Positions 55,978 through 60,783 of a stretch of 64,000 nt of DNA are shown piece after piece. Location of the stretch: assembly GCA_013360745.1 (NCBI GenBank), contig JABWBA010000001.1:1-64000 (forward strand), written 5' to 3'. The translations under genes were made by a program, and so were the position numbers. The DNA is from Chthonomonadales bacterium. GTDB lineage: Bacteria > Armatimonadota > Chthonomonadetes > Chthonomonadales > CAJBBX01. The notes beneath the pieces are model-generated. The model worked only from the letters and a program-made list of their open reading frames with translations. It was not told the DNA's origin and made no database searches. The stretch's first letter is position 1. The number at the start of each line of letters is the position of its first letter.

Positions 55978-56163
55978 GACGATGGATGTGTCTGTGGCTG
56001 GGCCGCTGATCGTGTGGCACGTTCGCTGCCGCATCCGCTGCCGATCGGATGATGGTTATCAACAAAGCCTCCTTCCGCGACGGGAGGGAGCAGCTCAGCC
56101 AATCAGGAGCTTTCCCGGTTGCGGCGATTTCCGATAGTGCAGTTCACTCTCCGAGTAGATGAA

Positions 56164-56880
56164 ATGAATACCAATGAACAGACACGGCTCATCAACGAGG
56201 ATTTCCCGTACATCGATCGGACACCGCATGGTCAGTATCAGCGCGAACCGCACGCGATTGCGGATCTACGGAGGCTGATGGGTATGCCCGCATACGCAGT
56301 GCCAAAGGCCATCGCCGATCTGTCGCCGGAGGCTGGGGTATGCGCGTTTCGTATTGCCTATGTAATGGGTCTGACCGGAGTCAGCGATCAGATCGTGGAG
56401 GCCCTGCTGTATAAGTGCGTCCCGTATATTCTTAGGCGGCTTCCAAGGTATGGCGTGATGTACGCTCTGGAGGATATCCGATCGGATCTGGCTGTAGTAT
56501 TGATCGAACAATGGCGACGAACGGACTCATGTCAGGAGTTCTGGGAGGTCCGTTTCTGGCACTGCCTCGGGCTTCGGATACGTGATGTAGTGCGGCCCTA
56601 TTGCCGATTCGGGGAACGGGATGCCGACGGTCCGTCCCCTTTCCCGGAGACGCTCCAATCGATGCCGTCCGCTGTCAATGTGGAGGAGGAAGCGATTCAT
56701 CGCGTTATGTTGGACGGTCTCCCGGATAACCTTCGCCGCGCCGTCGTCCTGCGTCATCGGCATGGTTATACCGAGGGTGAGATCGCCAGGCGGATGGGAG
56801 TTACATCCAGAACGATAAGGAACTGGTTGACGAAGGCTCGAGAGCTGTTGATCAAACATTATGGAGGCGCCGAGCGATGA
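56164..56880 (+). CDS. Divergent sigma-70 family RNA polymerase sigma factor
   Basis: C-terminal sigma4-like LPDNLRRAVVLRHRHGYTEGEIARRMGVTSRTIRNWLTKARELLIKHY; region-2-like DIRSDLAVVLIEQWRRTDSCQEFWEVRFWHCLGLRIRDVVR; likely ATG 56164. Confidence 0.75.
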   Translation: MNTNEQTRLINEDFPYIDRTPHGQYQREPHAIADLRRLMGMPAYAVPKAIADLSPEAGVCAFRIAYVMGLTGVSDQIVEALLYKCVPYILRRLPRYGVMYALEDIRSDLAVVLIEQWRRTDSCQEFWEVRFWHCLGLRIRDVVRPYCRFGERDADGPSPFPETLQSMPSAVNVEEEAIHRVMLDGLPDNLRRAVVLRHRHGYTEGEIARRMGVTSRTIRNWLTKARELLIKHYGGAER

Positions 56881-57608
56881 AGCGTGTGACACGGGACGAA
56901 GCGTTGTTCGAGTTTTCGAAGCTTGGCCATATTGATGAAAGAACGCTGGCGGAGTACCTGGCCCGATATCCGGAATACGGCTCGGACCTGATGGATCTCG
57001 CGCTTAGCCGCGTGCCGTTGATGGACCTGGAGCCCACGGCCGATGATCTGGATCCTCAGGCAGCGGAGAGCATTGAGGTTAAGACCAGCATTGCGGCGAT
57101 GCTCGAGCGGATGCGCACTCATGGTACAGCAAGCCACCTCTCACAATGGGGTCTTCTTGGAACGATTAAACGCCTGGGTAGGGCGCCATCGTCCTTTGCC
57201 GAGAGCCTCGAACTCGGCCTCAGTGTCCTGACGAAGCTCGACCGTCGGTTCTATGAACCCTCTACCATTCCGCTTCAGCTGTTGACCGATCTCTCCAAGG
57301 CGATCGACGAACCGCTGGTGGCTCTGCTTGAGTATTTGAACCGCCCGCCGACCCTTGCTCGACAGGCATCGTATCGAGCGACTGCTCGTGACGTACAAGA
57401 GGGTGGCCTTCGAACACCCTTGCGGTTGTCCGAAGCGGAACATAGGGTTGGCTTGTATCGCCCCGTACGGGCTGATGGATCGGCAATGGATGGGTCGATC
57501 GATACCGATACGGAAATCGGAGCGGATCATATCGAACGTCTTGATTTCGCGGAAAGCGTGCGTGATGCGCCCGATATGAGCCTCGAGCAGAAGGCGAAAT
57601 GGGCGTGA
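56877..57608 (+). CDS. XRE-like putative regulator, partner of downstream ImmA/IrrE protein
   Basis: ATGA overlap with sigma gene; LGLSVLTKLDRRFYEPSTIPLQLLTDLSKAIDEPLVALLEYL resembles the second half of a Cro/C1 HTH; ends FAESVRDAPDMSLEQKAKWA. Confidence 0.5.
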   Translation: MKRVTRDEALFEFSKLGHIDERTLAEYLARYPEYGSDLMDLALSRVPLMDLEPTADDLDPQAAESIEVKTSIAAMLERMRTHGTASHLSQWGLLGTIKRLGRAPSSFAESLELGLSVLTKLDRRFYEPSTIPLQLLTDLSKAIDEPLVALLEYLNRPPTLARQASYRATARDVQEGGLRTPLRLSEAEHRVGLYRPVRADGSAMDGSIDTDTEIGADHIERLDFAESVRDAPDMSLEQKAKWA

Positions 57609-57639
57609 GATCCACCTAGATCGAAGAAGATCTCCGGCC

Positions 57640-60600
57640 ATGACACGGTCCGATTTCGATGGTGTTCGCGACGCGGCACACCGTGCGCTGCGATCCGTAG
57701 GACTGGACATTCACTCCCTTCGATCGGCGGATATTCCGATAGAAGCGCTGTTGAGCTCTCTGGGCTACCAGTGTATCGGCTTGCCACGTTTCGATCCGCT
57801 TCTTGCCGGCGCTCTTGGCGTACTCGACCGTGAGGCGGGCGCCGTTTGGATCCGGGAAGGTTTGGCGCCATCCGACCGCCGACTACTAATCGCGCATGAG
57901 CTCGGACATGCCTGGTGCGGTACAGGCGCTGATATTAACGATGATGATGAGGGGACCTTCGGATTCCTCGCCCGCTCGTCGTTCGATGTGGATGGACCGC
58001 TGGGGTACAGTCCGGTCCAGGCTGATGAGATCGATGCCACGGTATTCGGCCTTGAACTCATTGCACCCGGACCCGCACTCAGAGCCGCCTTCCTAGGCGG
58101 AATGACCTCTTCGGCGATCGCTGAGAAGATAGGCGTTCGACAAGCCACCATTGATGGACAGCTCGTGCACCACCTCCTCCGCCCAATCCGGCCAGCAGGG
58201 CGACCTATAGAGCCCCATCTGCCCCTGGACACCTACCAGCGCCGCGCATCGGTCCATATGGATGGTGACGTTACCGTCCTGGCGGGTCCAGGCACAGGAA
58301 AGACGCGCGCATTGATCGGCCACGCTGTCCACTTGATACGGTCGGGAGTCAGACCGGACCGGATATTGATCCTAACATTCGCTCGACATGCGTGTTCCGA
58401 GATTCGGAATCGGTTGGAAGAGAGCCTCGGTGACGAGTGTCGTGGGATACGCGTATCCACTACGCACGCCCTGGGCCTCGAGATCCTTCGCACCTACGGC
58501 GGTCGAATCGGCTTGTCGCCGAACCCCGGGATCTTGAGCGCTGACGAAGCCATCCGTTTCATGGAACAGCGTCTCGATTTGTTTGAGATGTCGGATGCGC
58601 CGATCGGATTGAGTCCGTTGACCACGCTGATCGGATACTACCGGAGCATTGGGAGATGGAAAAGCCAGGGAATCACTCCTGCGAGCCTGTTGAGCGAATC
58701 CATGCCGATCGGTGTGAAGGACGATGCTCCGATTCGCGCGTATTCCGCGTATCAAGCGCTGCTGAGCAGTAATGATTGCCTGGACCTATCCGATCTAGTG
58801 TATCGCTCGCTTGAGCTCCTACGCTCGCATCAGGATGTACTCTCAACCGTTGCCGGCACGTTGGACCACGTCCTTGTCGATGAAGCACAGGATCTCCACG
58901 ACGCCGAATGGGAGATGATTCGTCTATTGACGGTCGGTACGGCGCGCCTCTGGACGGTTGGCGATCCTAATCAGGCGATCTACGGATTTCGTGGAGCGGG
59001 ATGGAAGGGCTGGGCGTCTGGTGGCATGGGGCGAACAGTTCACGGGCAATACGAACTGGCGGTGAACTATCGCTGTGGAGAACGTATCGTCCGTTTGCTG
59101 AGAGCCTTCGCGGGCCACGCTGGCCTGACGCCTCCTCGGCGTATGCGCTCGGTAACTTCCCGCGATCGTGGTCGAATACGTTTCGCCACGACTCTGGATG
59201 AAAGGACGCAGGCCGACGCGATCGCTGAGGATATCATGGAGAGCCGGCGATCGGGTACGCCCTACTCCGAACACGCAATCCTGGTACGCACGAACAAACA
59301 GGCGGGGCTGTATGCCCGAGTACTACGGGACCGTGGTATCCCTGTGATCTGGGCGGCCTCGGTTTTATCTTCAGATTCTGCTCGTACGGCGATTGCCATG
59401 ATCGCTAGAGCGGCATCGTCTGCCGTGGATGCACGGGGCGGGGAACAAGTCGGTCCCAGGGAGGTCCTGAGCGAGTATCTATTCGGCAGTGAACGTGCAG
59501 CGGTACGAAAGAGCCTCGAGCCGCTCGATTATGCGGCGCTCGCATGGCTATACCGTTTCGTTGATCGATGGGAGTGGCACAGTCGAGATCCGGATCGTGC
59601 TGGCCGAACGGACGCTTTGTTCGCAGCGCTGTCGGCGCTCCGAAGAGCAGTTGCCCTTCGTGAAGACGGATTGGAGTTGAGTCACCTGATGGCTTCTGAT
59701 GATGCGGTCCGGGTGTTGACCGTGCACAGAGCGAAGGGGCTTGAGTTCCACTCGGTCTATGTTCCGTCATTGAACATCGGGCGATTCCCTATTCAGTCAA
59801 CTTCTGCAACGCAGAACGACAACGATGCGAACCGACTCGACGGGACGGAGTCCGACAAGGAAGAGGCCAGGTTGCTGTATGTTGCCATCTCACGGGCCCG
59901 CGAGTCGGTTACCGTGTCGGGTTGCAGGGAGCTGGATGGAAAACCCGCTGAGTTATCCTCTCTGGGCCAATGGGCGCAGTCGGCCGTTAAAGAGGTTGGC
60001 GGTGAGTTGATCGAGTGGCGTTCCGAGGGGACATCGCGTCCCGCGAGATCCTCAGTACAGAACCTACCGGCGCAAAGTGAAGAGTTGTCGCTCGATGATC
60101 TGGATGTATACCACCATTGCCCACGACGATTCTACTACGAACGGACGGAACTCGCCTCGGGAGCCTGGAGCGATCCTGATCGTCTCTTCCAGCGTGGGAT
60201 GCGAACGGCCATGCGAACGATACAGGCCGCCAGGGTGCACGAGAGCGAGAACGTGCACGATAAGGCGTATCAAGTGTGGCTGAGTGTGTGGAACGCCGAT
60301 CAATGGCCGAAGGACTTCGATGACCATTATCAAAGGCTGGCACAACGTACCATCCGAACGGTTTGTGGATGTCCGGAACTCCGTACCGGCGAAGTTGGTA
60401 TGCACCTTCGAGTACGCAGTCCGGCCGGGGTCTTTGTGTTGACAGCGGATCGCATCGTTCATTCATCAGACGGATCGACTACCGTTGAGATATTCCGCTA
60501 CACTCGGAGACCCCGTTGGAACGGTCGTCTTGGCGCGATCGTCCAGATAGGGGCCGAACAACAGTGGCCTGATCGCCATGTGCGAACAGCGATCCGCTAC

Positions 60601-60783
60601 TGCCTCGACGGCGAACACACGCTGGAGCAATACCGGCCCTCGGTGAGCGCTGTGACGATGGCCGACAAACACTACAACGGTATCATGAATCGGATAAAGG
60701 AAGGCGATTATCCCGCGAAACCATCACGATGGTGCGCGCAATGCCCGTTTCTATTCGATTGCCCGGAAGCGTCCGACCGGTAG
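57640..60783 (+). CDS. ImmA/IrrE metallopeptidase - UvrD/PcrA-like helicase fusion with C-terminal Cys-flanked nuclease-like domain
   Basis: HEXXH LLIAHELGHAW + EIDATVFGLELIAP; Walker A LAGPGTGKTRALI, LVDEAQDL, GDPNQAIYGFRGAG, LTVHRAKGLEFHSVYVP, LLYVAISRARE; C-terminus YHHCPRRFYYE ... WCAQCPFLFDC. Confidence 0.9.
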   Translation: MTRSDFDGVRDAAHRALRSVGLDIHSLRSADIPIEALLSSLGYQCIGLPRFDPLLAGALGVLDREAGAVWIREGLAPSDRRLLIAHELGHAWCGTGADINDDDEGTFGFLARSSFDVDGPLGYSPVQADEIDATVFGLELIAPGPALRAAFLGGMTSSAIAEKIGVRQATIDGQLVHHLLRPIRPAGRPIEPHLPLDTYQRRASVHMDGDVTVLAGPGTGKTRALIGHAVHLIRSGVRPDRILILTFARHACSEIRNRLEESLGDECRGIRVSTTHALGLEILRTYGGRIGLSPNPGILSADEAIRFMEQRLDLFEMSDAPIGLSPLTTLIGYYRSIGRWKSQGITPASLLSESMPIGVKDDAPIRAYSAYQALLSSNDCLDLSDLVYRSLELLRSHQDVLSTVAGTLDHVLVDEAQDLHDAEWEMIRLLTVGTARLWTVGDPNQAIYGFRGAGWKGWASGGMGRTVHGQYELAVNYRCGERIVRLLRAFAGHAGLTPPRRMRSVTSRDRGRIRFATTLDERTQADAIAEDIMESRRSGTPYSEHAILVRTNKQAGLYARVLRDRGIPVIWAASVLSSDSARTAIAMIARAASSAVDARGGEQVGPREVLSEYLFGSERAAVRKSLEPLDYAALAWLYRFVDRWEWHSRDPDRAGRTDALFAALSALRRAVALREDGLELSHLMASDDAVRVLTVHRAKGLEFHSVYVPSLNIGRFPIQSTSATQNDNDANRLDGTESDKEEARLLYVAISRARESVTVSGCRELDGKPAELSSLGQWAQSAVKEVGGELIEWRSEGTSRPARSSVQNLPAQSEELSLDDLDVYHHCPRRFYYERTELASGAWSDPDRLFQRGMRTAMRTIQAARVHESENVHDKAYQVWLSVWNADQWPKDFDDHYQRLAQRTIRTVCGCPELRTGEVGMHLRVRSPAGVFVLTADRIVHSSDGSTTVEIFRYTRRPRWNGRLGAIVQIGAEQQWPDRHVRTAIRYCLDGEHTLEQYRPSVSAVTMADKHYNGIMNRIKEGDYPAKPSRWCAQCPFLFDCPEASDR

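Follow-up and report, generated by a model that had tools for sequence, protein, structure and literature searches.

Three adjacent genes in the window, a 64,000-nucleotide stretch of a contig from a Chthonomonadales bacterium, probably form an immune-pathway controller in which a sigma factor freed by a peptidase would drive an immunity regulon. The genes encode an ECF-like sigma factor, a 243-aa protein with an XRE-like helix-turn-helix (HTH) core and a 1047-aa fusion of a peptidase, a helicase and a pseudonuclease domain (Table 1). At the level of sequence, this reading is supported by the conservation of the module, by its intact active sites and by a predicted promoter and the genes that it precedes. 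The broader proposition is that a helicase-fused protease senses DNA damage or invasion and frees a dedicated sigma factor, which would co-activate a regulon of immune and repair genes across the genome (type I CRISPR-Cas, R-M, DinD/RhuM-type, ADP-ribosylation and ubiquitin-like conjugation operons), and that this is an undescribed controller class present in at least seven phyla; the chances of this being right or wrong are judged to be about even.

Table 1. Features of the module and of the predicted promoters in the genome of the window (window positions unless a contig is named)
Feature	Position	Strand	Details
Predicted sigma-dependent promoter	56128-56157	+	TTTCCG-N18-CGAGTA, directly upstream of the sigma gene
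ECF-like sigma factor gene	56164-56880	+	238 aa; Sigma70_r4_2 E 2.9e-12; first gene of the module, conserved
XRE-like HTH protein gene	56877-57608	+	243 aa; candidate anti-sigma factor and protease substrate; ATGA overlap with the sigma gene
Five-helix HTH core (model)	57135-57338	+	residues 87-154; pLDDT >90; XRE/lambda-type HTH helix pattern
C-terminal helical tail of the HTH protein	57540-57605	+	F..A...PDM...K..W; conserved; follows the disordered linker
Peptidase-helicase-pseudonuclease fusion gene	57640-60783	+	1047 aa; Pfam, alignment of 21 homologues, AF2 model
IrrE/ImmA/CapP-type metallopeptidase domain	57730-58179	+	PF06114, above cut-off
Peptidase HEXXH	57895-57909	+	
Conserved Glu130	58027-58029	+	
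UvrD-type SF1A helicase	58228-59928	+	PF00580 E 2.8e-54; PF13361
PD-(D/E)XK (RecB/AddB/Cas4-like) domain	60085-60765	+	residues 816-1042; PF12705 E 1.4e-5
cas3 promoter site, genome of the window	G000:C84:50396		ahead of type I-C operon cas3-cas5c-cas8c-cas7-cas4-cas1

The three gene products

The earlier note had placed the three open reading frames correctly, and its identification of a sigma factor is borne out by the Pfam match to sigma-70 region 4. The protein has the features of the ECF type, with regions 2 and 4 only and a two-box promoter before its own gene, and it matches TIGR02937 (sigma70-ECF) over residues 76-231 with an expectation value (E 3.6e-9) that lies under the curated cut-off. 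No Pfam match was obtained for region 2.

The second protein has no family match in Pfam, NCBIfam or PADLOC. Its AlphaFold (AF2) model (pLDDT 77) consists, in order, of N-terminal helices, the five-helix core, a disordered linker (residues ~171-220, pLDDT about 50) and a C-terminal helical tail (pLDDT about 96). A Foldseek search of the PDB with this model returned SinR and CylR2 as the top matches (probability 0.96-0.97), with non-significant E-values of ~0.6-0.9, and DdrO is found within the first ten matches, likewise with a non-significant E-value. For the modelled core, the XRE-like label given in the earlier note is therefore tentative, a resemblance of fold on which the top Foldseek matches agree at non-significant E-values, and it is not reflected in the family databases. 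In the alignment of homologues, W242 of the tail is invariant and F224 nearly so, and the disordered linker and tail are a plausible candidate for the cleavage region.

An XRE-like core would also suit a DNA-binding repressor. The substrates of the nearest peptidases, CapH and DdrO, are repressors of this kind (PMC10904395), and Bub (ubiquitin-like) operons elsewhere use CapH+CapP; on such a model, the peptidase would clear promoters and the sigma factor would then simply be expressed. However, the promoters described below have the two boxes of a sigma signature in common, and no inverted-repeat operator is evident in them on a non-systematic look; the sigma and HTH genes remain paired even where there is no peptidase nearby (L105-L108), as sigma/anti-sigma pairs do. 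A repressor is thus considered unlikely, and the HTH protein is treated below as a putative anti-sigma factor.

The fusion gene starts after a 31-nt gap behind the HTH gene. The joining of an ImmA/IrrE peptidase to a UvrD helicase, reported in the earlier note, is confirmed by Pfam matches to Peptidase_M78 (residues 66-167, above cut-off) and to both the N- and C-domains of UvrD; a third, C-terminal domain of the PD-(D/E)XK type had been missed. A scan of genome contigs with the single fusion protein returned no matches, and an alignment-based scan did. Across 21 homologues (the window protein and 20 others), the HExxH residues of the M78 peptidase and its downstream glutamate ligand (H86, E87, H90 and E130) are invariant, and the closest PDB sequences to this domain are those of CapP (7T5T, E 3.5e-7) and IrrE (3DTE, E 1.1e-6). 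The helicase motor belongs with the SF1A UvrD/Rep enzymes, and its Walker A/B and other SF1 motifs (GKT, DExQ, QxIY and NYR) are intact and invariant in the same alignment. A Foldseek search with the model of the fusion (pLDDT 80, pTM 0.81) retrieved Deinococcus radiodurans UvrD (E 1.2e-31), as well as AddAB and AdnAB.

In the C-terminal domain, four cysteines in a C...CxxC...C arrangement (C827, C1032, C1035 and C1041) are invariant in the 21 homologues. The D...(D/E)xK nuclease motif is conserved in none of the columns of this alignment, and the possibility of an active nuclease in the fusion was rejected because of its absence throughout. The domain is probably an Fe-S DNA-binding module.

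The UvrD/AddAB/AdnAB fold, together with the scoring of the fusion against GajB by PADLOC, would be compatible with a defence or repair effector, that is, a Gabija-like or AddAB-like helicase regulated by its own peptidase domain, with the sigma factor and HTH protein only controlling expression. This is very improbable given that all homologues lack the nuclease motif and HExxH is invariant, and that the sigma promoter precedes many other immune genes. The fusion is instead regarded as a putative DNA-sensing protease.

Distribution of the module and its association with Bub operons

The module occurs in no fewer than seven bacterial phyla. Within the class, 26 of 31 genomes contain the fusion, and on this basis the idea that the copy in the window is mobile or was acquired recently was rejected. 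In the phylum Armatimonadota, where the module is chromosomal, the HTH family was detected in 40 of 291 genomes, most of which keep the sigma-HTH-fusion order, and the three genes are adjacent in families f1, f2, f8, f9, f15 and f28. They are also adjacent in 16 plasmid and seven named chromosomal loci. In the Chloroflexota, Acidobacteriota, Alpha-, Beta- and Gammaproteobacteria, Cyanobacteriota and Abditibacteriota, all examined full-fusion loci have the HTH gene with an ORF in the sigma slot directly upstream; at two of these loci (L183 and L185) the sigma HMM is silent and the slot contains an ORF of fitting size. Since the same three genes occur in the same order across the Armatimonadota families and at every examined full-fusion locus outside them, their grouping is far beyond chance. 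Homologues consistently without sigma and XRE-like neighbours, which the earlier note had named as evidence against its proposal, were mostly not encountered, the exceptions being four genomes of the class (G013, G014, G020 and G027) in which the sigma-HTH pair is located away from the fusion.

Several variants of the arrangement were observed. In the Armatimonadota genus g29 (L121-L124) the third gene is shortened and the sigma promoter is strongly conserved; at L122 and L124 its product is 643-645 aa long, with the peptidase domain present and little helicase. A 7.6-Mb genome (G051) contains a second sigma-HTH pair followed by a 317-aa protein (L114:7769-10097) that has no match to the peptidase profile. 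A Spirosoma plasmid (L335:1175-5768) encodes a sigma factor, an HTH protein with a weak match to the middle gene, a cysteine-containing Cas4-like PD-(D/E)XK protein and a protein of 829 aa that is Argonaute-like by eye. The set is oriented divergently from a Bub operon, does not include the peptidase-helicase and is possibly a variant controller. In an Armatimonadaceae locus, a gene for a full WGR-PARP_reg-PARP protein, a poly(ADP-ribose) polymerase, lies directly downstream of the module (L129:9263-10573 on JAUJOK010000014.1, the same gene as L109:12585-13898 on G049:C71), and genes for ADP-ribosylglycohydrolase and ARPP-1 bear the sigma promoter in other relatives. In an Acidobacteria locus, the gene after the module encodes a protein with a VWA domain (L130:10024-10698), and proteins that look VWA-like stand behind the promoter in G008/G009 (L238 and L250), the one that was scanned giving no Pfam match.

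Bub operons lie beside the module in Chloroflexota, Proteobacteria, Cyanobacteria and Abditibacteriota. At almost all of the plasmid loci examined, the module adjoins a ubiquitin-like operon (multiubiquitin, ThiF E1, DUF6527 or JAB); no such operon was visible at L189, and L188 is partly unannotated. The chromosomal loci L128, L131-L133 and L135 contain Ubl, E2, JAB and E1 genes, recognized by their sequence similarity to those on the plasmids. Elsewhere, the corresponding slot of Bub operons is occupied by an HTH protein with an ImmA/IrrE protein, or by a WYL protein; these occupants correspond to two controllers, CapH+CapP and CapW, that are described in PMC13373217, the main text of which makes no mention of ImmA or 'metallo'. 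The module is likely to be the controller of some of the Bub operons that were not assigned to CapW, CapH+CapP or CapK+CapS in that work. Location beside Bub, as expected of a Bub controller, is seen for the plasmid and chromosomal relatives and not for the copy in the window: Bub genes in this genome were rejected, as PF14452 is absent and none lie beside the module.

Predicted sigma-dependent promoters and their candidate targets

The predicted promoter has the consensus TT(T/A)CCG, followed after ~17 bp by a lineage-specific -10 box. Its occurrence upstream of the sigma gene in the window is predicted to reflect autoregulation. Armatimonadota sigma genes are preceded by TTTCCG-N17/18-(G/C)AGTA, with 20 of 39 upstream regions having a spacing of 18; a spacing of 19 is found only in the window and at L108, and every other spacing from 13 to 24 gives 0-3 regions. 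TTTCCG itself is present in 24 of the 39 regions, against 3.8 expected.

Upstream of Bub, TT(A/T)CCG-N17-CGAT is found in 12 of 21 module loci. With a looser pattern, the promoter is present at 13/21 loci with the module and 0/10 without it (Fisher p 0.001), some of these loci, such as two from Acinetobacter, being non-independent. Several of the remaining loci appear to contain variants with TTCCG and other -10 boxes, which were noted by eye and post hoc. Within single loci, the sigma and Bub promoters share their -10 variant, namely CGATCA in L180 and L182 and CGACTT in L186, and in L128 (Chloroflexota) TTTCCG-N17-CGATTA precedes both genes.

The motif is also present upstream of cas3 in 8 of 23 cas3 loci, at spacings of 18-19 only; no instances at other spacings or in antisense orientation were found in these 23 loci. 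All seven family f1 genomes with an above-cut-off cas3 (the genome of the window and six relatives) have it. In the genome of the window, the sigma and cas3 promoters have the same spacing of 19, with a spacer 1 nt longer than that of the relatives. The cas contig stretch L228 was inspected for a CRISPR array and contained none. In the sister family f2 the motif is weakly linked to cas3, with only G025 carrying it among the loci of module-carrying genomes, and in genomes without the module it is found at 0/4 cas3 loci, a contrast that is non-significant alone (p 0.26). The suggestion that another host sigma factor serves the TTTCCG/TTACCG promoters, and that the neighbours of the module share them merely as immune genes, draws on the small size of this last control and on the fact that binding of the motif by the sigma factor of the module is predicted, but it is the least probable reading considered, given the Bub operons without the module, the matching -10 variants and the spread of the motif over phyla with different host sigma sets.

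If the sigma factor of the module does recognize this motif, its regulon may extend to a variety of immune and repair genes in family f1. Over 12 f1 genomes, 100 occurrences of the motif were counted, compared with 40 of the reversed pattern, and many sites lie 15-150 nt before genes for C5 DNA methyltransferases, N4/N6 methyltransferases, DinD/Bro-N and RhuM proteins. Further genes at such distances behind the motif encode AAA/HEC-01A-like ATPases, PLD-SNF2 helicases, an Mre11/SbcD-like phosphoesterase, thermonuclease (SNase), LigT, ARPP-1 and ADP-ribosylglycohydrolase. PADLOC matched 9/10 motif-linked genes, against 2/10 random ORFs from the same genomes (both weakly), in a comparison for which the ten motif-linked genes were picked for being recognisable and in which methyltransferases match generically. 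In the genome of the window, a scan with a relaxed pattern gave seven matches against seven for the control, and of the sites checked, the ones ahead of the sigma gene and of cas3 alone are clearly in promoter position; given the lack of a genome-wide motif excess, the regulon may be small there, and none is asserted beyond the operon itself and cas3. In G001, near-identical promoter copies, TTTCCGGATT(C/T)..CAACC(C/T)CAAACGAGTA, occur on contigs C117, C282, C319, C358, C451 and C835, mostly with no evident ORF downstream; they may represent a repeat or genes for short RNAs.

The proposed switch and its relation to known systems

In resting cells, the XRE-like protein would act as an anti-sigma factor that keeps the dedicated ECF-like sigma factor from working. 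The helicase/Fe-S end of the fusion would be engaged by damaged or foreign DNA that is single-stranded in places, and the attached IrrE/CapP-type peptidase would then cut the XRE-like protein. Once free, the sigma factor would transcribe its own operon, generating positive feedback, as well as distant immune and DNA-repair operons with TT(T/A)CCG-~17 bp-lineage-specific -10 promoters; in most phyla these targets would be Bub operons, and in Armatimonadota they would be genes for type I-C CRISPR-Cas, R-M and repair. By analogy with CapP, PprI/IrrE and CalpL, we infer that the fusion reads DNA, that its peptidase cuts the HTH protein and that the sigma factor is released from an anti-sigma factor as a result. 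A DNA-damage or foreign-DNA sensing circuit of this type had been suggested in the earlier note, and fits the strict co-occurrence of the genes, the intact peptidase site, the XRE-like core, the position of CapP as the nearest solved peptidase and the presence of a predicted promoter upstream of both the sigma gene and immune operons, with cleavage, anti-sigma function and activation by DNA as its conjectural steps. The evidence in that note covered the module and did not extend to the output (CRISPR-Cas, Bub, R-M and repair genes).

Most of the immune controllers known from bacteria are repressors that act locally and are removed by ssDNA-activated proteases or kinases. If the proposed mechanism is correct, a sigma factor with its own promoter would allow one DNA signal to switch on many separate immune loci, CRISPR-Cas included. 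The module makes it testable whether bacteria have an SOS-independent, sigma-driven immune regulon, and its promoter could be used to search poorly studied phyla for immune genes that are still unknown. The combination of a protease-helicase fusion, an HTH protein and a dedicated sigma factor looks undescribed: a literature search, in which the 2025-2026 Bub work and the CapP work were incompletely covered, so that a prior mention is possible, returned no description of the module or of an IrrE-UvrD fusion with a sigma factor.

AddB/RecB/AdnAB and Cas4 proteins have a UvrD-like motor and, behind it, a PD-(D/E)XK domain that contains a cluster of four cysteines. The fusion shares this motor, domain and cluster, but lacks the nuclease motif throughout its homologues and has an N-terminal peptidase. 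In the case of CapP and PprI/IrrE, ssDNA activates the peptidase, which cuts an HTH partner (PMC10904395; PMC13373217). IrrE(PprI)/DdrO of Deinococcus has a peptidase of the same family and an XRE-type partner, and its activation by ssDNA is known (PMC10904395); it differs in having neither a helicase fusion nor a sigma factor, and in derepressing repair genes only. CapH+CapP, which controls CBASS and Bub operons, is similar in its peptidase family (CapP being the best PDB match), its adjacent HTH partner, its Bub-adjacent slot and its immune output. However, it consists of a stand-alone peptidase and an adjacent HTH repressor for the next operon, whereas the peptidase of the module is fused to a UvrD helicase and a probable Fe-S pseudonuclease, a dedicated sigma factor is present and the predicted targets are also distant, rather than limited to the neighboring operon.

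CapK/CapS and CapW are likewise encoded beside Bub operons, which they switch on after DNA damage, but they are a kinase/repressor pair and a WYL repressor, without a protease, a helicase or a sigma factor (PMC13373217). In the type III CRISPR system CalpL/CalpT/CalpS, the activated protease CalpL cleaves the anti-sigma factor CalpT and thereby frees the sigma factor CalpS for a transcriptional immune response (PMC12751052), which is the logic proposed here. CalpL is a Lon protease with a SAVED sensor that binds cA4, whereas Pfam identifies an M78 peptidase and a UvrD helicase in the fusion, and the module is not tied to type III CRISPR. The module is filed among the protease-switch immune controllers, and not as a separate category.
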